Part shown: positions 17,125-32,380 of the stretch, piece after piece
How the letters are laid out: each line of letters opens with the position of its first letter
Position numbering within the stretch: the stretch's first letter is position 1
Source: Tsukamurella sp. 1534
Lineage (GTDB): Bacteria; Actinomycetota; Actinomycetes; Mycobacteriales; Mycobacteriaceae
Reading direction: 5' to 3'
Assembly (NCBI RefSeq): GCF_000312385.1
Contig: NZ_HE997627.1
Coordinates: 315,911 to 379,910, forward strand
Length of the DNA: 64,000 nucleotides
Translations under genes and position numbers: made by a program
Notes under the pieces: model-generated
Told to the model about the DNA's origin: nothing
Database searches by the model: none
What the model saw: only the letters and a program-made list of their open reading frames with translations

Positions 17125-18381
17125 ATGCGAAACGCGAGCCGAGACAATCGAATCCGCAGGGCGCTGCTCGTGCCGGTCGCGCTGGTGCCGCTGATCGGGC
17201 TGCTGCCGTCCGTGGCGTCCGCCGAGCCCGCGGAGCCGAAGCCGTCGCCCGCGACGACGACCACCACGACGCCGCCGCCGACCACCGCGCGGCCCACCAC
17301 CGCACCGACCACGAAACCCGCGCCCACGCAGACGCAGGAACCGACGACGCGGCCGAACACTCCCACCACACAGCCGAAGCCCACGATCACGCTCCCGACG
17401 ACGAAGCCGACGACGTCGACTCCGCAGGGGCCTCCCGGCCGGCTCACCGTGGGTGCGGTGCGGATCGTCGACCCCACCGGCGCCGGCGTCCCGGGAGCGA
17501 CCGCGTACGTGCGCGGGTGCAGCGGCGGCCCCGGCGCCACCCTCGGCGACGGCGGTGCCACCACGGTGACCGGACCGTGCGTCCAGGCCAAGATCGATCG
17601 GGTCCCCACCAACTGGCGCGTGACCGGGCCCAGCGCCATGACGCGCGTCAGCGATTCGGGGCGCGTCGAGTTCCGGTTCACGATGGAGCGCGGCGGCATC
17701 GTTCCGCCGCCCACCACGACGCCTCCCCCGCCGCACGGCGCCGTCCGGATCGATCTCGCCGCCCGCGATCAGGACGGCCGGGGCGTCGCCTCCGAATACG
17801 CCGTCTCCGAATGCGAGACGGGCCGCCCGCTCGGCGGCGCCCGCACCGACTCAAACGGCAACGGGGGCGGCGCGTTCCCGGGCCGCTGCATCACCGTGGT
17901 CCCCACCGCGTGGCCCGCGTCGTGCGTTCTGCTGGGCCCGCACGCCTACGCCCGGGTGGTCGGGAACGGCGTGAACCACTTGCGGTTCCGGTTCCGCTGC
18001 GGCGTCACCATCCCGCCCGGTGAGGTGGAGACCGAGGGCGCCCTGGTGAAGACCGACCGGCTGACCGGCGCCCCGCTTGGCGGCGCGCGGTTCGCCATCG
18101 CCCGCTGTGAATCGGGCGACGTGGTGCGGTCGGTGACCACCGGCGCCGACGGAATCGCGGCCTTCGCGCTCCCCTCGGGCTGCTACCGGGCCATCGAGAC
18201 AGTGGCGCCCGCCGGGTACATCCGCGACGGCTCCGGCACCGCGTTCCAGGTGCACCTCACGCCGCGGTTCGAGGTGCGGGTCACCAACGTCAAGATCGAC
18301 GCCGGTCCGGTGGTGCGCAACCCCGAAGTGCGCGTTCCGATCTCGTCGATCCCGTCCGGCCCCACCCTGAGGGCGTCGTGA
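17125..18381 (+). CDS. Exported Thr/Pro-rich protein with Cna-B/SpaA-like domains
   Basis: A 418-residue exported protein. The signal peptide (residues 1-33) ends VASAEPAEP. It is followed by a Thr/Pro-rich stalk with PTTRPTT-type repeats (about 40-105) and three modules that resemble prealbumin-like Cna-B/SpaA domains (about 107-190, 207-290 and 303-395). The last is clearest: ALVKTDRLTGAPLGGARFAI, with GYIRDGSGTAFQV near its end. There is no LPXTG motif, hydrophobic tail or basic anchor at the C-terminus. ATG 17125 follows GAGGAGG. It overlaps the sortase-like gene by four bases, so the two are made together. Role as a surface or secreted structural protein is inferred. Confidence 0.72.
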   Translation: MRNASRDNRIRRALLVPVALVPLIGLLPSVASAEPAEPKPSPATTTTTTPPPTTARPTTAPTTKPAPTQTQEPTTRPNTPTTQPKPTITLPTTKPTTSTPQGPPGRLTVGAVRIVDPTGAGVPGATAYVRGCSGGPGATLGDGGATTVTGPCVQAKIDRVPTNWRVTGPSAMTRVSDSGRVEFRFTMERGGIVPPPTTTPPPPHGAVRIDLAARDQDGRGVASEYAVSECETGRPLGGARTDSNGNGGGAFPGRCITVVPTAWPASCVLLGPHAYARVVGNGVNHLRFRFRCGVTIPPGEVETEGALVKTDRLTGAPLGGARFAIARCESGDVVRSVTTGADGIAAFALPSGCYRAIETVAPAGYIRDGSGTAFQVHLTPRFEVRVTNVKIDAGPVVRNPEVRVPISSIPSGPTLRAS

Positions 18382-18968
18382 TCGCCGCCCGACGGTCCGC
18401 CGCGGTCGCCGCCGCGCTGCTGCTCCTGGGCGGGTGCGGCGGCGTGGACGGGACGGCGACGCCGGCACCGTCGAATCCGAGCGCCCAGAGCGACCTGCGC
18501 CCTCCGGTGAGCGCCGTCGCCACCGAGGCGACCACCCCGGTGCGGGTGAGTACCAGCGGGGCGGACGCGCCGGTGGACGCCGTCGCGACGGACGCGCAGG
18601 GGGCGTTGTACCCGCCGCAGGCCGTCGATCGCGTGGGCTGGTGGGTGGATTCGTCCCTCCCCGGATCCGGCAAGGGATCGGTCGTCGTCACGGGGCACGT
18701 CGACGACGCCCGCCAGGGCGACGGTTTCGCCAAGCGCTTCAGCGGCCTGGCGCAGGGCGATGCCGTGACCCTGACCGGCAAGGACGGCGCGGCGGTGCGC
18801 TACCGGGTCACGCGGACGCTCTCCATCGACAAGGGCCGGCTGCCCGTGGACGACCTCAACCGGCTCGACGGCCCCGAGACGCTGATCCTGGTCACCTGCG
18901 GCGGGAAGTTCGTCGGGCCGCCGCTCGGGTACGAGAACAACGATGTCGTCTACGCGGAGCGCGCCTGA
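18378..18968 (+). CDS. Class F sortase-like lipoprotein
   Basis: A 196-residue protein with a lipobox (LLGGC, Cys20), so it is probably lipid-anchored outside the membrane. The C-terminal half matches class F sortases: TGHVDD gives the catalytic His107, and LVTCGGKF gives Cys174. The usual Arg just before the conserved Tyr of the next strand is not there: the sequence reads PPLGYENNDVVYA, and the only Arg nearby is at 195. It starts with GTG overlapping the upstream gene. It may process or anchor the Cna-B protein, or it may be a relative with altered activity. Confidence 0.75.
   Translation: MIAARRSAAVAAALLLLGGCGGVDGTATPAPSNPSAQSDLRPPVSAVATEATTPVRVSTSGADAPVDAVATDAQGALYPPQAVDRVGWWVDSSLPGSGKGSVVVTGHVDDARQGDGFAKRFSGLAQGDAVTLTGKDGAAVRYRVTRTLSIDKGRLPVDDLNRLDGPETLILVTCGGKFVGPPLGYENNDVVYAERA

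Positions 18969-19798: not shown

Positions 19799-19803
<5 letters not shown>
19783..19803. terminator. Bidirectional hairpin between SDR and ABC-F genes
   Basis: CCTGATCC (19783-19790) pairs with GGATCAGG (19796-19803) around a five-base loop and spans both converging stop codons. There is no T-run. Confidence 0.4.
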
Positions 19804-21427
<1,624 letters not shown>

Positions 21428-21438
21428 AACGGTCCAGC

Positions 21439-22650
21439 TTACCGGTCCGACGGTCCGCTTCTCATCTCCGTTTCGCCGGTGGTGACGGGTTTCACCGCCG
21501 GCAGCGGCGCGGGCGTGCGGAGGACCAGCCGCCGGGCGGGATCGCGTTTCGCCTCGTACAGCGCCGCATCGGCCTGGGCCACGGCCTGCGCGAGATCCGA
21601 GGCACGCAGTCGCGGGAGGACGACGGCGCCGACACTGGCGTCGATCGGCGAGCGCACGGCGCGGACGCCGACCAGCCGCTCGAGCAGGGCGACGACCGCG
21701 TGCGCCTCGGGCACCGACTCCCGCACCGCGACCACGACGAACTCGTCGCCGCCCATCCGCGCGACGACGGACCGCGGCAGCCCGGAGCGCAGCAGCGCGC
21801 CGACCCCGACCAACCGTTGATCGCCCGCGAGGTGTCCGTGTGTGTCGTTGAAGAGCTTGAACCCGTCGAGGTCCAGCACCGCCACCGCGGTGGGCCCCTC
21901 CTCGCGCTCGACGACCCCGCGCAGGGTCGACTGCATCCCGAGCCGGTTGTAGAGGCCGGTGAGCGCGTCCCGGTTGCCCTCGGCGACGATCTGCCCGATC
22001 CCGCGCCGGCCGGATTCCACCACGAACTGCACCAGCATCGGCAGGGCGAACACGATCGCGAGCGCCGGCGCGAGGGTCGTGTACAGATCGCCCAGCGAGT
22101 ACCCGTCGAGCGCCATCGTCGCGACCGTCGCCCCGGCGACCGCCACGACGGAGAACACGCAGTGCAGCAGGAGGATCCGCCATCCGAGCAGGAACGCGGT
22201 CATCATCGCGAGCATGCCGAGGTAGGTCGTCCCACTGATCCTGGCGGGGCCCGCCTGGGCGAGGCATCCGGCGAACAGGCACACATCGGCCACCGCCACG
22301 AACCGGATGGCGTCCCGCGCGGCCGGCTTCCGCAGCGCGAGCCACCAGACGCCGAGCACGGCACTGGCACTGGAGGTGGCGACGAACACCGCCATCGCGG
22401 CGGGCGACTGGGGCCGGGCCGACGAGAACAGGACTCCGATGCAGAGCGGGACCATGAGCAGCGCCAGGCCGCCGACGGCGGCGCGCAGGGCCAGTCCGCC
22501 GCCCTGCACCCGCAGCCACGAGGTCGCCGCCGCGTACTCCGCCAGTCCGGCCTCGCGCCAGGCCGGCCGATCCCCGAGCCTGCGGGCGATCGCGCGGAGC
22601 ACGGCCGACACCGTCGGCTTCCGGCGGGCGCCGCCGAGGGCGCGACTCAC
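21439..22650 (-). CDS. Membrane GGDEF-domain protein (third of three)
   Basis: A 403-residue predicted diguanylate cyclase. About six hydrophobic segments cover residues 40-200, followed by a GGDEF domain beginning RDALTGLYNRLGM with an intact active site ARMGGDEF. The I-site RxxD that would sit five residues before GGDEF is absent (LPRSVVARM), so product feedback inhibition is unlikely. The start is uncertain; GTG 22650 (VSRALGG) fits the length of the two paralogues. It should make cyclic di-GMP from two GTP. The membrane half may be a sensor. No EAL or HD-GYP phosphodiesterase is encoded nearby. Confidence 0.83.
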   Translation of the reverse strand: MSRALGGARRKPTVSAVLRAIARRLGDRPAWREAGLAEYAAATSWLRVQGGGLALRAAVGGLALLMVPLCIGVLFSSARPQSPAAMAVFVATSSASAVLGVWWLALRKPAARDAIRFVAVADVCLFAGCLAQAGPARISGTTYLGMLAMMTAFLLGWRILLLHCVFSVVAVAGATVATMALDGYSLGDLYTTLAPALAIVFALPMLVQFVVESGRRGIGQIVAEGNRDALTGLYNRLGMQSTLRGVVEREEGPTAVAVLDLDGFKLFNDTHGHLAGDQRLVGVGALLRSGLPRSVVARMGGDEFVVVAVRESVPEAHAVVALLERLVGVRAVRSPIDASVGAVVLPRLRASDLAQAVAQADAALYEAKRDPARRLVLRTPAPLPAVKPVTTGETEMRSGPSDR

Positions 22651-22723
22651 CTGCCGCCGTCGAATTCGATATTCACGGTCCGGAACCCTACCGGGCGAAA
22701 GTCCCAGCCACGTCGCAACCCAC

Positions 22724-22763
22724 AGTGTGCACTTGCAACCGAATCGTGGTGTGCTACTGCAAC
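22724..22763. repeat. Pair of 15-16-bp direct repeats upstream of the third GGDEF gene
   Basis: AGTGTGCACTTGCAAC (22724-22739) and GGTGTGCTACTGCAAC (22748-22763) lie 24 bases apart in the 122-base gap between GGDEF genes two and three. They differ at a few positions and could be protein sites for an internal promoter. Confidence 0.35.
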
Positions 22764-22772
22764 AGTCGCGAC

Positions 22773-23912
22773 TCACCGCACGGCGTGCGAGCTCGCCTCC
22801 CGGACCACGATGTGCACGCGACGATCGCGCTTGGCCTCGTACAGCGCGGCGTCCGCATCGGCGACCGCCGCTTCCACGGCCGGCCGGGTCGGCTCCTCGA
22901 GGATGACCGCGCCCACGCTTCCGGTCACCTCCGGCGGCTCGTCCTCGGAGCCCGTGACGAGGCGGCGCAGGGCGCGGATCACGGTGTCCGCGCCGTACCG
23001 GGAACTGCGGAACGCGACGACGATGAATTCGTCTCCACCCAGCCGGGCGATGAGCGCACCGTCGACTCCCGCGCGGAGTCTGCGGGCGGTCTCGGCGAGC
23101 TTGTCGTCCCCCGCGAGATGCCCGTAGGCGTCGTTGAACGCCTTGAACGAGTCCAGGTCCACGATCGCCACGACGCACAGGCCCGTCCGCTGCCTGCGCA
23201 GCAGGTCCTGCTGGGCGGCGCGCAGACCCTGCCGGTTGTAGAGCCCCGTGAGCGGGTCCCGGTTCCGCTCGGTGAAGACCTTCCCCATGCCCATGCGCCC
23301 GAACTCCACGAGCACCTGCACGATGATCGGAAGCCCGACCTCCATGGTGACCGCGGGTGCGACGTACACGTAGAGGTCGAGCACCGTGACCCCGTCCTGA
23401 ACGACGGAGACCGCGACGTACGCGGTGATCACGGCGAAGGCGAACAACGCCTGCAGGACCAGGGCCCGCCACCCCAGGAGGAACGCCACCAGCATGGCGA
23501 TCATGCCCAGGTAGATGGTCCCGCAGATCCTGGACGCGGGAGCGCCGAGGACGACGGTCCCGAGCACGATCAACAGATCCGACAGGACGATGAAGGTCAC
23601 CGCCTCCCGGAACGTGTGATCGCGCTTGACCGCCCACCACACGCCGAGGAACACCGCCGCCACGATCGCGGCGACGTACAGGCCCGTCCGCAGCGGCCCG
23701 GGCGGCCCCAAGGGGTGCCAGACCATCGGCAGGCCGACGGGGAGCATGAGGATCGCGAGGCTGCCGACCACCACGTGCATGGCGATCCTGCCACCGGGAA
23801 ACATCGAGATGCCGCGCCACATGAACGCGAACTCGTGGCGGCCGGCGCGCCGCCACGCGCCCCAGTCGGTGAGCGCCCGCACCACGATCCTCGCGAGCCG
23901 GCCGGGCGTCAT
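22773..23912 (-). CDS. Membrane GGDEF-domain protein (second of three)
   Basis: A 379-residue paralogue of its neighbours. The N-terminal half contains about six membrane helices; the second half is a GGDEF domain (RDPLTGLYNRQGL, then ARLGGDEFIVV). The catalytic motif is complete and the I-site is missing. Start is ATG 23912 (MTPGRLARIV), which aligns with the N-terminus of the first paralogue (both share TDWGAWRRAG/TDRGAWRDAG). There is a 77-base gap to the upstream gene. Predicted diguanylate cyclase; sensed signal unknown. Confidence 0.84.
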   Translation of the reverse strand: MTPGRLARIVVRALTDWGAWRRAGRHEFAFMWRGISMFPGGRIAMHVVVGSLAILMLPVGLPMVWHPLGPPGPLRTGLYVAAIVAAVFLGVWWAVKRDHTFREAVTFIVLSDLLIVLGTVVLGAPASRICGTIYLGMIAMLVAFLLGWRALVLQALFAFAVITAYVAVSVVQDGVTVLDLYVYVAPAVTMEVGLPIIVQVLVEFGRMGMGKVFTERNRDPLTGLYNRQGLRAAQQDLLRRQRTGLCVVAIVDLDSFKAFNDAYGHLAGDDKLAETARRLRAGVDGALIARLGGDEFIVVAFRSSRYGADTVIRALRRLVTGSEDEPPEVTGSVGAVILEEPTRPAVEAAVADADAALYEAKRDRRVHIVVREASSHAVR

Positions 23913-23989
23913 CGGACGTCGGCGGCCGATTCGCGCGTCCGACGGGAAGCCCGCCCGTTCATCGCCCCGTTCGCCCACGAGCGGGGATT

Positions 23990-25141
23990 TTACTCGCGGA
24001 AAGCGGCTTCCCGGAGCACGACGGAGGCGATCGCGCTGCGTTTCGCCGCGTACAGCGCGCCGTCGGCGTTCATGACCCAGTCGGCGTGGTCGTCCACCCC
24101 CGCGCCTCGGGCGATCACGATGCCGAGGCTGCCGGCGATGCGCGCGTCGGCACCGGCGCCGCGGGGCGCCATCAGTGCGCACAAGCGGTCGACGGTACGG
24201 CGCGCCTCCTCGCGCCCAGGACGGACCGCGAAGACCTCGAACTCGTCGCCGCCGTTGCGCGCGACGAGTACCTCGGGCACCGTGTTCAGCCGGCGCGCGA
24301 CCTCGGTGAGCAGGGTGTCCCCCGCCGCGTGGCCGAACTCGTCGTTGAACCGCTTGAAGGCGTCGAGATCGAGGATCGCCGAGACGACGACGGAGCCCGG
24401 GCCGGCCTTCCGGGCCATCACCCTGCGCATCCCGAGCACCATGCCGCGGCGGTTGTAGACGCCGGTGAGGCTGTCGACGTACCACTCGCGGGAGATCCAT
24501 TCGACACCCCGCCGGCCCGTCTCGACGACCACCTGGATCATCACGGGCAGGCCGACGACGGTGATCAGAGCGGGCGTGGCGAACACGAACAACTCGCCCA
24601 GGCTACGGTCCTCGACCGTCACCGCGTACGCGGTGAGCGCGGTGATGACGACGAACGCGAAGGAGCAGTGCACCAGAAGGATCCGCCAGCCGAGGAAGAA
24701 GGCGGCGAACATACCCGGCATGGCGAGGAGCACGGTCCCGGCGACGCGGCCGGTCGGGCTCGCCCCCGCGGCGATGGACGCCGTCATGAGGATGTCGGAC
24801 AGGACGAGGAACCACCGGGCTCGGCGCACCGTGGGCCACGGCCCCGCGATCCATTCGACGCCGAGGACGAAGCCCCACACCGACGCCACGAACTGCACCA
24901 CCCGCGCAGGGACACCCTGCGGGCCCAGCGCGTTGAACTGCATGATCACAGCGATCGGGAGCAGCAGGATCGCGAGGGAGCCGATCGCGTACTTGAGGAA
25001 CCGGCCGGCCCGCAGCGATCGGAGGGACTCGGTGGCGAAGGAGTACTCCTCGGCACCGGCGTCGCGCCACGCCCCCCGGTCGGTCAGGCGCCGCCAAGCG
25101 CGGCGCGCGGCGACGGCACCGTTACGCGCCCCGTCGGACAC
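23990..25141 (-). CDS. Membrane GGDEF-domain protein (first of three, overlaps trpA)
   Basis: A 383-residue protein with about six membrane helices (residues 45-215) and a GGDEF domain (VDSLTGVYNRRGM, then ARNGGDEFEVF). The catalytic residues are intact, and no RxxD I-site is seen. The GTG start at 25141 lies 20 bases inside the 3' end of trpA, so translation is probably coupled to the tryptophan operon. Mycobacteria and relatives usually have lgt at this position after trpA. The trio seems to arise from tandem duplication, as all share the same layout and N-terminal motif. Confidence 0.85.
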   Translation of the reverse strand: MSDGARNGAVAARRAWRRLTDRGAWRDAGAEEYSFATESLRSLRAGRFLKYAIGSLAILLLPIAVIMQFNALGPQGVPARVVQFVASVWGFVLGVEWIAGPWPTVRRARWFLVLSDILMTASIAAGASPTGRVAGTVLLAMPGMFAAFFLGWRILLVHCSFAFVVITALTAYAVTVEDRSLGELFVFATPALITVVGLPVMIQVVVETGRRGVEWISREWYVDSLTGVYNRRGMVLGMRRVMARKAGPGSVVVSAILDLDAFKRFNDEFGHAAGDTLLTEVARRLNTVPEVLVARNGGDEFEVFAVRPGREEARRTVDRLCALMAPRGAGADARIAGSLGIVIARGAGVDDHADWVMNADGALYAAKRSAIASVVLREAAFRE

Positions 25142-25904
25142 CGGCGGCCAGCTCGGCGGTCAGGGAACGCACCGCGTCCAGCGAGTCGCCCGCCGCACTG
25201 ACCAGAGCGGAGCCGACGATGACGGCGTCGGCGTACCCGGCGATCTCCGCGGCCTGCTCCCGCGACCGGACGCCCAGCCCCACGCCGACGGGGATGTCGG
25301 ACACGTCGCGCACCCTGGCCACCAGTTCCGGTGCCACGTTGTCCACCGCGTCCCGGGCGCCGGTGACGCCCATCGTCGACGCCGCGTAGAGGAATCCCGA
25401 CGAGGCGTTCGCCGTCATGGCGAGGCGCTCCGGCGTCGAGGAGGGCGCGACGAGGAAGATCTTGTCGAGCCCGTGCCGGTCGGCCGCGTCGATCCACTCG
25501 TCCGCCTCGTCCGGGATGAGGTTGGGCGTGATCATGCCCCGGCCGCCGGCCGCGGCGAGATCGCGCGCGAACGCCTCCACGCCGTACTTGAGCACCGGGT
25601 TCCAGTAGGCCATCACGACCGGAGCGCCGCCCGCGTTCGCCACCGCCTCGGCGTAGGAGAACACGTCGCGCACCCGGATACCCCCGCGCAACGCGTCGTC
25701 CGCGGCGCGTTGGATCACCGGCCCGTCCATCACGGGATCGCTGTAGGCGACACCGATCTCGACGATGTCGGCGCCCGACTCCACCATCGCCACGACGGTG
25801 TCGATGCCGGCCTGCTTCGACGGGTAGCCGGCGGGGAGGTAGGTGACCAGCGCGGCGCGGTCCTCCGCCCGGCACTGTTCGAAGACGGGTGCCAGTGCGC
25901 TCAC
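25122..25904 (-). CDS. trpA: Tryptophan synthase alpha subunit
   Basis: A 260-residue TIM-barrel enzyme that cleaves indole-3-glycerol phosphate to indole and glyceraldehyde-3-phosphate. Catalytic Glu49 (DIVEIGV) and Asp60 (SDPVMDGP) sit at the standard positions. Start is GTG 25904 ([10 protein letters not shown]), overlapping the trpB stop by four bases, a coupling typical of trpBA. Its 3' end overlaps the first GGDEF gene by 20 bases. Works as an alpha2beta2 complex with TrpB. Confidence 0.97.
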
Positions 25905-27214
25905 TTCACGTTCCCTTCGCTGTTGCGGGTCTCGGTGTTGAGGTCCTCGCCGACCACCTTCTGGCCGACCACGTCGCCGTGGCCGTCGAGCAGCCCGAAC
26001 CACTTCCCCGCCGTATCCACGTCCTTGTCGCCGCGCCCGGACAGGTTCGCCACGATCACCGCATCCGGTCCCAGCTCGCGGCCCACCCGGAGCGCTCCCG
26101 CGACGGCGTGCGCGGACTCGATCGCGGGGATGATGCCCTCGGTGCGGCACAGCAGCGCGAACGCGTCCATCGCCTCGGCGTCGGTCACCGGGATGTACTC
26201 CGCGCGGCCGGACTCCTTGAGCTGCGCGTGCTCCGGCCCCACGCCCGGGTAGTCCAGGCCGGCGGAGATCGAGTGGGACTCGATGGTCTGGCCGTCGTCG
26301 TCCTGCAGCAGATAGGAGTACGCACCCTGGAAGGCGCCGGGCGTGCCGCCCGTGAACGTCGCGGCGTGGCGGCCGGTCTCCACGCCGTCGCCCGCGGCCT
26401 CGCAGCCCACGAGCCGCACACCCGCGTCGCCGATGAAGGGATGGAAGACGCCGATCGCGTTGGACCCGCCGCCGACGCAGGCGACCACGGCGTCGGGCAG
26501 GCGGCCCTCGGCCTCGAGGATCTGCTCGCGGGCCTCCATGCCGACGACCCGCTGCAGGTCGCGCACCATGAGCGGGAACGGGTGCGGGCCGGCGGCGGTG
26601 CCGAAGCAGTAGTACGTGGTGTCAGCGTTGCTGACCCAGTCGCGCAGCGCCTCGTTGATGGCGTCCTTGAGCGTCGCGGACCCGGAGGCCACGGCGATCA
26701 CCTCGGCGCCGAGCAGCCGCATCCGGGCGACGTTGAGCGCCTGCCGGTCGGTGTCCACCTTGCCCATGAAGATCACACAGTCGATGCCGAGCAGGGCGCA
26801 CGCGGTGGCGGTGGCGACGCCGTGCTGGCCGGCGCCGGTCTCCGCGATCACCCGCGTCTTGCCCATGCGCTTGGCGAGCAGCACCTGGCCGAGCACGTTG
26901 TTGATCTTGTGACTGCCGGTGTGGTTGAGGTCCTCCCGCTTGAGGTAGACGCTCGCGCCGCCCGCGTGCTCGTTGAGCCGCAGGCACGGGTACAGCGGCG
27001 ACGGGCGGCCCGTGTACTGGCGCTGCAGCCGGTCCAGCTCGTCGAGGAATCCGCGGTCGCTGCGCACCTTCTCGAACTCCGCTGTCACCTCGTCGATGAC
27101 CGCCATGAGCGCCTCCGGCACGTGGCGGCCGCCCCACACGCCCCAGTGCCCGCCCCCGTCGGGCTCGAAGGCCGATCGTTCGGACAGTCCACTGCTGGCG
27201 TTAGGCAAGCTCAC
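25901..27214 (-). CDS. trpB: Tryptophan synthase beta subunit
   Basis: A 437-residue PLP enzyme that condenses indole with serine to tryptophan. The PLP lysine is Lys103 in HTGSHKINN, and the phosphate-binding GGGSNAIG loop is present. It starts with GTG at 27214. In related genomes trpB follows trpC directly. Here a 4.3-kb cassette separates them, and the nearest upstream co-directional gene is the PrpF-family gene, 15 bases away. A weak AATACT sits seven bases before the GTG and could be a local -10 box. Confidence 0.97.
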
Positions 27215-27229
27215 GCCCCCAAGTATTCC

Positions 27230-28369
27230 TCACCCGGTCAACGGGGATTCAGGGCGGAGCGGCACGCTGCCCTGCATCAGTCGGCGGCACGTCCGGTACA
27301 GCGACGCGCGGACCGCGCGACCGTCGTCATCGACCTCGGCCTCCGTCGCGAAAACCCCTGAGGGGCTCCCGATCCGGAGCGCCCCGTCCCGATCCCGCGC
27401 GGTCCGCGCGACCACTGTCCCCGGAAGCGCGTCGGCGACGGCGGCGCACAGGGCGGTGGTCACGGGGATCGCGCGGTGCACCTGCCCCGAGGAGATGGTG
27501 CGGACGCTCAGGTCGTAGGCGTCCGCGCCGACGGGCGTCCCGTCCAGAGTGGAGTACGCAGACGGCGGCGCCACCACCGCCACCTTCGGCGCGGCGAACG
27601 GCGCACCGTCGGGCGTCGCGCACAGGCCCATGACCACCGCGGCGCGGCACCGCACCTCCTCCAGGCGGGACAACACCCCGGGCAGGGACTCGAGCTCGGC
27701 GACGGTCTCGTCACCGCGGATACCCGCGGCCTCGGCGGTCACGAACACCACCGGGTTGCCGGCGTCGACGAGCGATGCCTCGATCGGCCCGTGGCGGGTG
27801 TCGATCCGCTCGGCCTCGGCACCCGAGGGCAGCAGGCGGCCCGTGCGCGAACCGCCCGGGTCGAGGAAGTCGAGCCGCACCGGGGCTCCGGCCCCGCCGA
27901 CGCCCGGGATCGCGAGGTCGCCGTCCACCCGCGCCGTCCCGTCGGCGACCTCGAAGTGCGCGTCGATCGTCTTACCGGTGTTGGTGTTGTACATCCGGAC
28001 TGTCGCCGCGCCGTCCGGCCGTTCCACGACGCCCTGATCGACGGCGAACGGGCCCACAGCCGAGGCGAGGTTGCCGCAGTTGGACGAGTAGTCGACGATC
28101 GGCCGGTCGATCGCGATCTGCGCGAACGTGTAGTCGACGTCGACCCCGGCGCGCCCCGACGGGGCGACGATCACCGCTTTCGACAGCGACGACAGGCCGC
28201 CGCCCATCCCGTCGAGTTGGCGACCGTACGGGTCCGGCGATCCCATCGCCGACAGCAGGAACGCGTCGCGGCACCGCGGGTCGCCGGGAAGCTCCCGTTC
28301 CTCGAAGAAGAGGCCCTTGCTGGTGCCGCCGCGGATGAAGGCGGCCGGTATCCAACCGTCGCGGGGCAT
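27230..28369 (-). CDS. PrpF-family isomerase
   Basis: A 379-residue PrpF/DUF453 protein with a diaminopimelate-epimerase-like fold. Visible family motifs are FIRGGTSKG at the N-terminus, GGGLSSLSKAVIV, and DYSSNCGN, whose Cys is the expected proton-transfer residue. Known members isomerise aconitate-type double bonds (2-methylaconitate isomerase, 4-oxalomesaconate tautomerase). Start is ATG 28369, behind GAGGAGG; the in-frame GTG at 28384 would contain that ribosome site. It lies 33 bases after the GntR gene on the same strand. Its substrate is unclear, as nothing nearby supplies a tricarboxylate. Confidence 0.85.
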   Translation of the reverse strand: MPRDGWIPAAFIRGGTSKGLFFEERELPGDPRCRDAFLLSAMGSPDPYGRQLDGMGGGLSSLSKAVIVAPSGRAGVDVDYTFAQIAIDRPIVDYSSNCGNLASAVGPFAVDQGVVERPDGAATVRMYNTNTGKTIDAHFEVADGTARVDGDLAIPGVGGAGAPVRLDFLDPGGSRTGRLLPSGAEAERIDTRHGPIEASLVDAGNPVVFVTAEAAGIRGDETVAELESLPGVLSRLEEVRCRAAVVMGLCATPDGAPFAAPKVAVVAPPSAYSTLDGTPVGADAYDLSVRTISSGQVHRAIPVTTALCAAVADALPGTVVARTARDRDGALRIGSPSGVFATEAEVDDDGRAVRASLYRTCRRLMQGSVPLRPESPLTG

Positions 28370-28402
28370 CCGTTTCCTCCTCACCCGCCGCGCGCCGGCG
28401 GG

Positions 28403-29146
28403 TCAGCGTCCGGTGGTGGCGCGGGCGACGAACTTGAACCGGTCGCCGCGGTAGACGCTACGGGTCCACTCGAGGGCCGTCCCCTCCGGATCGCGGCCGA
28501 GCCGGTGCACCATCAGCAGGGGGTGGCCGATCGGTACGTCGAGCATGTCCGCCTCGTGCGGGGCGGCGAGGGCGGTCTCGACCGTGTCCTCGACGGCCGC
28601 GATCTCGCGGTCGTAGTGCACGCGCAGGGCCTCGTAGAGCGAGGCGTCGGCGTGCAGCCGGCCCGCCAACCCGCGCAGCGGGCCCCGCAGGTGGGCGACC
28701 TCGATCGCGAGCGGTTCGTCGTCCACGATGCGCAGCCGGGTCACCCGGTACACCCGCGCGCCGCGCGGGAGCTCGAGCGCGGCCTGGGTCTCCGAGTCCG
28801 CGGTGACGTGCTCGACCGCGATGACCCGCGAGGTGACCGATTTCCCGTCGACGCCGAAGTCCTCGCTGAGCGACGTCAGTTGCCGCACGCGCACCACCTT
28901 GGGCGGCGCGACGTAGGTGCCGCTGCCGTGCTCGCGCCGCAGCACTCCCTCGGCGGAGAGCTCCGCGAGCGCTTTGCGCAGGGTGGTGCGCGAGACACCG
29001 AGTTCGTCGGCCAGCCTCCGTTCGGCGGGCAGGGTGTCGCCGTGGCCCAGCGCCGCGATCCTCTTCTGAAGCTCCAGCTTGGCGCGGAAGTAGCGGGGCG
29101 GCTGCGTGCGGGACCGGTCTTCCAGGGTGTCCACCATGTGTTCCAC
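28403..29146 (-). CDS. GntR/HutC-type regulator with UTRA domain (DasR/NagR-like)
   Basis: A 247-residue regulator. A winged helix-turn-helix of GntR type covers about residues 30-85 (LPAERRLADELGVSRTTLRKAL, HGSGTYV), followed by a UTRA ligand domain (about 105-242; YEALRVHYDREIAAVEDTVE, GHPLLMVHRL). GTG 29146 or ATG 29137 may be the start. It is divergent from the sugar porter, and two sites resembling the DasR operator lie in the shared promoter region. The ligand is inferred to be a phosphorylated amino sugar. Confidence 0.87.
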   Translation of the reverse strand: MEHMVDTLEDRSRTQPPRYFRAKLELQKRIAALGHGDTLPAERRLADELGVSRTTLRKALAELSAEGVLRREHGSGTYVAPPKVVRVRQLTSLSEDFGVDGKSVTSRVIAVEHVTADSETQAALELPRGARVYRVTRLRIVDDEPLAIEVAHLRGPLRGLAGRLHADASLYEALRVHYDREIAAVEDTVETALAAPHEADMLDVPIGHPLLMVHRLGRDPEGTALEWTRSVYRGDRFKFVARATTGR

Positions 29147-29165
29147 ATTACCCCTTGACCGTAGA

Positions 29166-29181
29166 AGTGGTCTATGCCACT
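29166..29181. promoter_or_regulatory. dre-like GntR operator, site 1
   Basis: AGTGGTCTATGCCACT matches the DasR/NagR-type palindrome ACTGGTCTAGACCACT at 13 of 16 positions. It lies close to the start of the GntR gene, where it would overlap that gene's promoter. Confidence 0.65.
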
Positions 29182-29195
29182 CTTAGTCCACCGGA

Positions 29196-29211
29196 ATTGG
29201 TATAGACCACT
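29196..29211. promoter_or_regulatory. dre-like GntR operator, site 2
   Basis: ATTGGTATAGACCACT matches ACTGGTCTAGACCACT at 14 of 16 positions and ends 15 bases before the porter's AAGGAGA ribosome site. It is exactly 30 bases from site 1, about three helical turns, so two dimers could bind on one face. Across the two sites GAAGTGGTCTAT and ATAGACCACTTC are perfect inverted copies. Confidence 0.65.
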
Positions 29212-29236
29212 TCCGGCAGGACCCCCAAGGAGAATC

Positions 29237-30664
29237 ATGAGCACTACACCGGCTGTGAAGTCGAGTGCCGTCCTCGTCGGCGTGGCCGCCGCGAGCCTCG
29301 GCGTGATCTACGGGTACGACACGTCGAACATCGCCGCGGCGAAGGACTTCATCCGCGCCGACTTCCACCTCGGCGACACCATGACCCAGGCCCTCGTCAC
29401 CGTCGTCATCGTCGGCGAGATCCTGGGCGCGCTCGTGGGCGGCTGGTTCGCCAACAAGGTCGGGCGGAAGAAGGCGATGGTCTCCGTGGCTACCGGCTAC
29501 ACGCTGTTCGCCCTGTTCGGCGCCTTCGCGCCCACGGTGCCGCTGCTGCTCGCCGCCCGCTTCCTACTGGGCCTCACGGTCGGCGTCTCCGTGGTGGTGG
29601 TCCCGGTGTTCGTCGCCGAATCCGCCCCGGCGAAACGGCGCGGGGCGATGCTGGTGGCGTACCAGTTCGCCACCATCTTCGGCATCATCCTGGGTTACGT
29701 GCTCGGCTACCTCCTGGCCGATACGAACCACGCCTGGAAGTGGATGCTCGGGCTCGCGGCCGTGCCGGCCATCGCGGTCGGCCTGGTCCTGCTGCGGCTG
29801 CCGGACACCGCGCGCTGGTACATGACCCGCGGCCGCGAGCAGGAGGCACGCGCCGCCCTCACCTCCGTCGAACCCACCGCCTCGGCCGCCGAGATCGAGT
29901 CGGAGATGGACGAGATGCGCGCCCAGCTGTCCGACGAATCCGGCGGGAAGCTCGGCCAGCTGTTCCGCGCCCCGTACCTGCGCGCCACCTTCTTCGTGGT
30001 CGTGCTCGGCTTCTTCATCCAGATCACCGGCATCAACGCGATCATCAACTACAGCCCCGACATCTTCGCCTCGATGGGCCAGGACGGGAACTTCGGCAAG
30101 TACATGCTGCCCGCGTTCGTGCAGCTCTTCGGCCTGCTCGCGGTGATCATCTCGATCTTCACCATCGACCGGTTCGGCCGCCGCCCCATCCTGCTCGGCG
30201 GCATCGCGACCATGGTGCTCGCGTTCGCGGTGATGATCCTCGCGTACCAGATGGCCGACGGCGACTTCAAGAGCAGCGAGGCGGCCGGGATCGTGGGCTT
30301 CGCCGGACTGGTGCTGGTGACGATCGGCTTCTCGTTCGGCTTCGGCTCCCTGGTGTGGGTGTACGCGGGCGAGGCCTTCCCCGCCCGGCTGCGCGCCTAC
30401 GGCTCGTCGGCCATGCTCACCTCCGACCTGGTGGCGAACGCGGTGGTCGCCCAGATCACGCTGACCATGCTCAACGGCATCGGCGGCACCGGCACCTTCG
30501 CCTTCTTCGGCGTCATGACCGTGCTCGCCTTCGTGTTCGTGCTCAAGTTCGCCCCGGAGACCAAGGGCCGCAAGCTCGAGGACATCCAGCACTACTGGCA
30601 GAACGGCGGCAAGTGGCCCGCCGCGGGCGGGGCCGGCGAGCAGGTCGGAGTGGTCGCGCAGTGA
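29237..30664 (+). CDS. MFS sugar porter
   Basis: A 475-residue transporter of the sugar-porter family with twelve membrane segments. Visible family signatures are GYDTSNIAAAKDF in helix 1, the GRKKAM and GRRPIL loops between helices 2-3 and 8-9, and PETKGRKLEDI at the C-terminus. ATG 29237 follows AAGGAGA. It overlaps the kinase gene by four bases. Together with the GntR operators this suggests proton-coupled uptake of an amino sugar such as N-acetylglucosamine; the substrate is inferred, not visible. Confidence 0.9.
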   Translation: MSTTPAVKSSAVLVGVAAASLGVIYGYDTSNIAAAKDFIRADFHLGDTMTQALVTVVIVGEILGALVGGWFANKVGRKKAMVSVATGYTLFALFGAFAPTVPLLLAARFLLGLTVGVSVVVVPVFVAESAPAKRRGAMLVAYQFATIFGIILGYVLGYLLADTNHAWKWMLGLAAVPAIAVGLVLLRLPDTARWYMTRGREQEARAALTSVEPTASAAEIESEMDEMRAQLSDESGGKLGQLFRAPYLRATFFVVVLGFFIQITGINAIINYSPDIFASMGQDGNFGKYMLPAFVQLFGLLAVIISIFTIDRFGRRPILLGGIATMVLAFAVMILAYQMADGDFKSSEAAGIVGFAGLVLVTIGFSFGFGSLVWVYAGEAFPARLRAYGSSAMLTSDLVANAVVAQITLTMLNGIGGTGTFAFFGVMTVLAFVFVLKFAPETKGRKLEDIQHYWQNGGKWPAAGGAGEQVGVVAQ

Positions 30665-31560
30665 ACCACGCGGTGATCGGCCTCGACATCGGAGGCTCCA
30701 AGACGCAGGCGGTGCGCGCCGAGAACGGCGTGGTCGTGGCCGAGGCCCTCGCGGGCAGCGCGAACATCGCATCGGTCGGGCCCGCGGAGGCCGGTCGCCA
30801 GCTCGACATCGCGCTCGCGCGGCTCGGCGTCGACGACGTGGGGGCGGTCTGCGCCGGCGCCGCGGGCGTGGAGACGCCCGCCGGCGCGGCCACCCTCACC
30901 CGGCTGCTGGCCGACCGGATCCCGGGCGCGCGGGTCCGCGTGGTGCACGACAGTCAGCTCATCCTCGCCGCGGCGGGCGTACGCGACGGCATCGCCGTCA
31001 TCTCCGGCACGGGCGCCGTAGCGTGGGGCCGCGCCGGCGAGAGGCACGCCCGCGCCGGCGGCTGGGGGTACCTGCTCGGCGACGAGGGCAGCGGCTACTG
31101 GGTGGCCAGGGAGGCGGTGCGCCGCACCCTGATCCGCCTGGATCGCGAGGAGTCGTCGGACCACCTCGGCCAGCAGCTGGCCGCGGACTGCGGCCTGCAG
31201 TCGACCGACGAACTACTGGACCACTTCTACGCGCAGTCCGAGCGCCGCTACTGGGCCGGCCGGGCGCGCGTGGTGTTCGAGCTCGCGCAGTCGGGCGATC
31301 CGGTCAGCACGGAGATCGTGGATCAGGCCGCGATCGCGTTGACGGGCATCGCGCTGTCGGTGGCGGACCGGATCGGCTCGACGGGGCCGGTGGTCCTGGC
31401 CGGCGGCCTCGCGGTGCACCAGCCGGCACTGCAGCGGCGGGTGCGGCACCACCTCGGCCTGCGATCCATCACCGACATGCGCGTCCTCACCGTGGACCCG
31501 GTGCGGGGTGCGGTGCAGATCGCGCTGCGGGAGCTCGAGCGGCGCAACGCCAAGGCGTGA
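30661..31560 (+). CDS. BadF/BadG-family sugar kinase (N-acetylglucosamine kinase-like)
   Basis: A 299-residue ASKHA-fold kinase. The phosphate-1 motif is GLDIGGSKTQAVRAENG at the N-terminus, the phosphate-2 motif is ISGTGAVAWG, and the adenosine motif is VLAGGLAV. It belongs to the BadF/BadG/BcrA/BcrD family, which contains eukaryotic and bacterial GlcNAc kinases. GTG 30661 overlaps the porter stop, so uptake and phosphorylation are coupled. It is convergent with trpC, with one base between the two stops. No nagA or nagB lies beside it. Confidence 0.84.
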   Translation: MNHAVIGLDIGGSKTQAVRAENGVVVAEALAGSANIASVGPAEAGRQLDIALARLGVDDVGAVCAGAAGVETPAGAATLTRLLADRIPGARVRVVHDSQLILAAAGVRDGIAVISGTGAVAWGRAGERHARAGGWGYLLGDEGSGYWVAREAVRRTLIRLDREESSDHLGQQLAADCGLQSTDELLDHFYAQSERRYWAGRARVVFELAQSGDPVSTEIVDQAAIALTGIALSVADRIGSTGPVVLAGGLAVHQPALQRRVRHHLGLRSITDMRVLTVDPVRGAVQIALRELERRNAKA

Positions 31561-31561
31561 A

Positions 31562-32380
31562 TCAGCGCGCGGGGCGCGGGCAGCTCGGGTGCGAGCCGGC
31601 GGTGACCAGGTCGGCGACAGCGGAACGCGGGTCGCCGGCCGTCACCAGGCCCTCGCCCACGAGCACGGCGTCGGCGCCCTGGCCCGCGTAGGTCAAGAGG
31701 TCGTGGCTGTCCCGGACGCCGGATTCGGCCACCCGGATCACCGACGACGGCAGCCCCGGCGCGATCCGGGAGAAGCAGTCCCGGTCCACCTCGAGCGTCT
31801 TGAGGTTGCGGGCGTTCACGCCGATCACGGTGGCGCCGGCCTCCAGGGCCCGGTCCGCCTCCGCCTCGGTGTGCACCTCGACGAGGGCGGTCATCCCCAG
31901 GGACTCCACCCGGTCCAGCAGCGAGACGAGCACCGACTGCTCCAGTGCGGCGACGATCAGCAGCACCAGATCGGCACCGTGCGCGCGGGCCTCGTGGATC
32001 TGGTACGGCGACACGATGAAGTCCTTGCGCAGCACCGGGATCCGGACCTTCGCACGGACCGCGTCGAGATCCGCGAGCGAGCCCTTGAACCGCCGCTGCT
32101 CGGTGAGCACGCTGATCACGCGGGCTCCCCCGGCCTCGTACTCGGCGGCCAGGGCGGCCGGGTCCCCGATCCCCGCGAGATCGCCCTTCGAGGGGCTCGC
32201 GCGCTTGACCTCCGCGATCACCGCGATGCCCGGCTCCCGCAGAGCGGCAGCGGCGTCGATCGCGGGCCGCGCGGCCTTGGCCGCCGCCTTCACCGTGGCC
32301 AGATCCAGGACCGCCTCCCGGGCGGCGACGTCCGCGCGCACACCCTCGATGATCGAGTCGAGCACAGTGGGGGAAGTCAC
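31562..32380 (-). CDS. trpC: Indole-3-glycerol phosphate synthase
   Basis: A 272-residue TIM barrel that converts CdRP to indole-3-glycerol phosphate. Family motifs are [36 protein letters not shown] and [10 protein letters not shown], with catalytic Glu and Lys residues in them. Start is GTG 32380 (VTSPTVLDS). It lies 38 bases after the Trp-associated membrane gene and is the last of the upstream trp block before the inserted cassette. Confidence 0.96.

Follow-up and report, generated by a model that had tools for sequence, protein, structure and literature searches.

The window analysed here, a stretch of 64,000 nucleotides from Tsukamurella sp. 1534, raises the question of why three genes for membrane GGDEF proteins stand in a row behind trpA, and whether their output is tied to tryptophan synthase. 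The earlier note had read them as a signalling module linked to trp operon expression. We consider it probable that an array of membrane diguanylate cyclases, variable in copy number, lies behind trpBA, and that ggd1 is carried on the trpBA transcript while ggd2 and ggd3 are transcribed from promoters of their own. Gene content, domains, motif integrity, the overlap with trpA, the spread in the genus and the losses were observed directly and form the starting point of the argument. Little has been written on cyclic di-GMP signalling in Tsukamurella, and none of the papers listed in our literature searches on the genus addresses it. The array offers a natural series of zero, one, two and three copies within one genus having few other cyclic di-GMP proteins, and its place behind trpA together with the ggd1 overlap is worth testing.

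Proteins encoded by the array

The features of the locus are collected in Table 1. The only trpA match in the whole genome ends with a TAA codon (25124-25122), and the first array gene begins inside it, as had been noted before: the overlap amounts to 20 nt, ggd1 having no other ATG, GTG or TTG start listed than the GTG at 25141. The three tandem genes were confirmed as open reading frames between 25141 and 21439. Each encodes a single PF00990 domain, with E-values of 1.2e-25, 2e-29, and 5.8e-27 and scores of 90.6, 102.9, and 94.9 bits for ggd1, ggd2, and ggd3, respectively, all above the curated cut-off of 23.8; the sole other Pfam match, to DUF1028 in ggd3 (E 0.25), is at chance level. At positions 17125-18968, the window also encodes a Thr/Pro-rich protein that looks secreted and, after it, a protein resembling sortases (E 7.1e-25 with the class F model, below that model's cut-off).

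Table 1. Genes and candidate regulatory elements of the trpBA-abcF region, in window coordinates
Feature	Position	Strand	Remark
trpB, tryptophan synthase beta	25901..27214	-	ORF; PF00291
trpA, tryptophan synthase alpha	25122..25904	-	PF00290, 3.6e-68; GTG start picked by eye in the translation
ggd1, membrane half (six helices) + GGDEF	23990..25141	-	GTG start 20 nt inside trpA
ggd2, membrane half (six helices) + GGDEF	22773..23978	-	GTG start; later starts possible
ggd3, membrane half (six helices, modelled) + GGDEF	21439..22650	-	GTG start
abcF, ABC-F family ATPase	19799..21427	-	last gene, closing the array
AATACT, -10-like box of trpB	27227-27222	-	just upstream of trpB; conserved
TAAAAT, promoter-like -10 box	23987..23992	-	ends 8 nt upstream of the ggd2 start (GTG); overlaps the stop codon of ggd1
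TAGGGT, promoter-like -10 box	22685..22690	-	precedes a 9-codon frame with GTG at 22676
TAAGCT, -10-like box of abcF	21436..21441	-	overlaps the ggd3 stop codon
GGTGA-N6-TCACC, CRP-like palindrome	21481..21496	-	inside the ggd3 3' end; centre ~61 nt before the abcF GTG

The GGDEF motif and the DxDxFKxxND segment are present in all three window proteins. Across the genus, GGDEF is intact in 27/27 full-length array proteins, a count that excludes a broken copy and another truncated at a contig end, and the signature DLD/DID-x-x-K-x-x-x-D columns are largely kept, with one N-to-Y change in the G013 protein. RxxD, the I-site expected five residues before GGDEF, occurs in none of the same 27 proteins within the nine residues preceding GGDEF. 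The intact motif and the missing I-site reported for the window proteins thus hold for the genus; the accompanying description of the three cyclases as un-inhibited is overstated, since a missing RxxD does not imply enzymes without regulation.

The AlphaFold2 model of ggd3, computed from a 27-sequence alignment (mean pLDDT 90.4), contains six membrane-length helices at residues 32-54, 63-85, 91-111, 116-135, 137-162, and 166-206, numbered from a start 20 aa downstream of the ggd3 GTG. Several membrane helices feed into the GGDEF domain, as in the MASE sensor cyclases, and the sixth runs into it unbroken; the membrane half modelled alone gave a pLDDT of 91.0. The model covers ggd3, to which ggd1 and ggd2 align over their entire length, in agreement with the previous estimate of about six helices per protein. 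Positive-charge counts favour a cytosolic location of both ends. The array genes are, by these sequence criteria, membrane diguanylate cyclases of an ordinary kind with an uncatalogued sensor half and a predicted cyclase activity.

Eight GGDEF matches and one EAL match were found in the genome (4.5 Mb, 4 contigs), the latter in a PAS-GGDEF-EAL protein encoded on the same contig as the array; domain searches of this genome gave no match to PilZ or HD_5/HD-GYP. The absence of a phosphodiesterase is therefore true of the locus and untrue of the genome. The genome G007 (contig L054) has 26 GGDEF and 11 EAL matches, vs 4-13 and 1-4, respectively, in the other genomes having any.

Distribution and evolution in Tsukamurella

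GGDEF genes lie directly behind trpA in 14 of the 16 Tsukamurella genomes, the window genome included. Three copies are present in five genomes (G000, G004, G005, G009, and G012), two in G001, G002, and G010, at least two in G007, where the contig ends, one in G006, G011, G013, and G015, and one, accompanied by a broken copy, in G003. No GGDEF gene follows trpA in G008 and G014; the latter genome is 83% complete, has broken trpA and trpB frames, and shows no GGDEF match genome-wide. The second copy of G003 (L047:7402-8346) is fragmented over different frames and lacks its middle. This survey of the genes downstream of trpA establishes that the cyclase array is a genus-level trait of variable copy number and not specific to one strain. 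The next gene after the array, or after trpA, is abcF in 15/16 genomes; in G007 the contig stops before it.

In other genera the position belongs to lgt, as the earlier note had stated: lgt directly follows trpA in all 19 loci fetched (17 from the same family, two from the same order), which are part of the 45 other-genus genomes matched with trpA. The window genome has its lgt at C3:609353, followed by pyk, on another contig than the array. Relatives of the membrane half were detected in 104 of 301 family genomes at E 1e-5; these genomes were drawn from a larger group with ten candidates scored per genome, and the weak relatives may be loosely related only. Horizontal spread of the trpA-linked array was rejected, as trpA, trpB, and lgt are absent near 10/10 relative loci outside the genus (L090, L122-L129, and L134), a small part of the whole, with 30 loci returned out of the 104 matching genomes.

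The array genes evolve faster than their neighbours and have been lost in some species. Identity to the window across the genus is ~34-70% for the array proteins, compared with 83-92% for trpA and 91-98% for abcF, and it is 69-76% for the PAS-GGDEF-EAL protein among the 12 genomes that have a clear orthologue. Within the window, identity among the paralogues is 36-39% for the membrane half, against 41-45% for the GGDEF half. On the phylogenetic tree, ggd1, ggd2, and ggd3 form separate lineages older than the species; support is 98/92 for ggd2 and 99/98 for ggd3, and just 86/95 for the ggd1 group and 85/73 for its wider clade. A recent tandem duplication in this strain was rejected, as each window gene belongs to a lineage of its own that has orthologues in other species. 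A fourth family copy in the same genome, near C1:204 kb, groups with ggd2.

Transcription and probable coupling to trpBA

The trp genes of the window are split: four genes (BadF-type, MFS, GntR, and PrpF) intervene between trpB and a group made of trpE (34610-33051), the gene for a TIGR02234 membrane protein, and trpC, which ends at 31562. The insert between trpC and trpB (27230-31560) is variable, with other genes in most relatives. A GATAAT, GATACT, or AATACT box lies 6-7 nt before the trpB GTG in 16/16 Tsukamurella genomes; a convincing -35 box was sought for trpB and none was found. Because trpBA stands apart from trpE-trpC and carries its own -10-like box, at most ggd1 would follow trpBA. 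Overlap of ggd1 with trpA occurs in six of the 16 genomes, by 20 nt in the window and by 17 nt in G003, G004, G005, G010, and G013, and in G009 and G012 ggd1 starts 1 nt past the trpA stop.

Mycobacterial promoters are reported to prefer TANNNT, with about one quarter of transcripts being leaderless (PMC6448022). Such a box precedes a GTG by 5-9 nt in front of 13/28 array genes, including ggd2 and ggd3 of the window, where the distance is 8 nt in each case; the window background for TANNNT 5-9 nt before ATG or GTG is 18 of 3642 triplets, and the same scan placed five further boxes within array genes, including one in the window. Another 11 of the 28 array genes overlap or abut the preceding gene (-20 to +1 nt), and the remaining four (G001_1, G009_2, G011_1, and G015_1) have neither a box nor an overlap with standard starts. 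In 7/13 boxed genes, the box precedes an 8-15-codon frame whose end falls on the cyclase start or close to it. In the window (22690-22648, box included) this is a 9-codon frame that begins 8 nt after the -10 box and whose TGA overlaps the ggd3 start; six other array genes are alike (8-15 codons). Taken together, these predicted promoters suggest that array genes are either coupled to a neighbour or self-promoted, rather than forming a single tryptophan-driven unit.

The abcF box reads TA(A/G)GCT or TAGACT across the genus, and a CRP-like GTGA-N6-TCAC site (at most two mismatches in 10) lies ~61 nt before the leaderless-type abcF GTG in 14/15 Tsukamurella loci, being absent in G008. The window genome carries a CRP-type HTH match (E 4.3e-18). 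CRP control of the cyclases was rejected: cyclase starts are preceded by a CRP-like site only in G002, G009, and G012, no such site lies before ggd2 or ggd3 in the window, and eight of the 25 sites detected are situated elsewhere, neither before abcF nor before cyclase starts.

The link to trp operon expression proposed earlier is thus retained in one point, the ggd1 overlap, and weakened by the split trp cluster, the box of trpB, and the boxes of ggd2 and ggd3; of the separate promoters that the earlier note had set against its own proposal, promoter-like boxes are predicted before ggd2 and ggd3, and ggd1 overlaps trpA. If all three cyclases were driven by trp expression, cyclic di-GMP would report the tryptophan supply, a reading that we regard as improbable. 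It draws on the same reading frame offset at which ggd1 overlaps or abuts trpA in several species, and on a 4-nt overlap of the second array gene with the first in G001, G002, and G010, where the row can be one operon; it is contradicted by the distance of trpBA from trpE-trpC, by the boxes of ggd2 and ggd3, by the absence of the ggd1 lineage from trpA in G006 and G015 and of any copy there in G008 and G014, and by family copies elsewhere in the same genomes. A tryptophan-linked module is only partly supported by these sequences.

The cyclase genes may instead have settled at a rearrangement breakpoint behind trpA, with the overlap being tight packing that carries no function. This would account for the synteny break, with lgt and pyk elsewhere, falling exactly here, for a copy number of 0-3 with one broken copy, and for first-gene starts ranging from -20 to about +290 nt relative to the trpA stop; however, the position is kept in 14/16 genomes with motifs intact in every full-length copy, and we judge this alternative unlikely. 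Fast divergence, the broken G003 copy, and the two array-less genomes would also fit dispensable genes. That the genes are inactive relics being lost, as divergence and the one broken copy might indicate, is scarcely credible given the GGDEF motif in 27/27 full-length copies and the largely kept signature columns.

We return to the array with one coupled and two self-promoted genes. In this mechanism, each protein would probably be dimeric, and its six-helix membrane half would read a signal from the membrane or its vicinity and thereby drive cyclic di-GMP synthesis by the cytosolic GGDEF domain, both the activity and its direction being predictions. The ggd1 gene would be read on the trpBA transcript, with probable translational coupling to trpA that likely provides a steady, biosynthesis-type supply, not control by tryptophan; ggd2 and ggd3 would probably be transcribed from their own promoters.

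Membrane inputs and comparison with known systems

Pfam covers no family for this membrane sensor half: neither MASE nor any other Pfam membrane family matched the 27 members at E 0.1 or the three window proteins at E 1, and its assignment to a known MASE family was accordingly rejected. Fifteen polar, Gly, Pro, or Trp positions, including D102, R138, Q188, E192, and R195, are kept in at least 26 of the 27 proteins, so the membrane halves likely share a common signalling core. Different inputs for the three halves, as deduced earlier from their divergence, are plausible. Relative to the variation inside them, lineages stand further apart in the membrane half (all rows; mean identity 57.8 and 62.1 within lineages, 37.6 between them) than in the GGDEF half (55.1 and 54.9 within, 42.5 between). 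The columns that are fixed but different between eight ggd1 and seven ggd3 rows, a choice that omitted G001_1, G009_1, G012_1 and G004_3, G005_3, G009_3, G012_3, number 14/207 in the membrane half vs 1/139 in the GGDEF half (Fisher p 0.006); mixed row choices gave 7/207 (p 0.15) and all rows (11 and 11) gave 3/207 vs 1/139 (p 0.65). This column test is not relied on, since its significance is lost once whole clades are included. A long shot, which we hold very unlikely, is that the halves represent an uncatalogued Mycobacteriaceae sensor family, that the three Tsukamurella lineages bind different ligands, and that the ligand of the trpA-coupled ggd1 is tryptophan, indole, or an aromatic compound related to them; the cyclic di-GMP level would then answer to tryptophan synthase output.

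Among known systems, AdrA/DgcC (MASE2) and the other MASE-type cyclases share with the array proteins an N-terminal multi-helix membrane half followed by a single GGDEF domain, and the NCBIfam AdrA model aligns to ggd2 residues 108-387, which include part of the membrane half, far below the model cut-off. Unlike the MASE-type enzymes, the array members match no MASE or Pfam membrane family and stand three in a row behind trpA. The array GGDEF domain matches solved cyclases of the PleD/WspR type (PleD 1w25 at 5.3e-25); however, the array proteins have a membrane input instead of a receiver domain and lack RxxD. The mycobacterial trpBA-lgt order is shared with Tsukamurella as far as trpB-trpA, whereas in Tsukamurella the cyclase array and abcF replace lgt and trpBA is parted from trpE-trpC.
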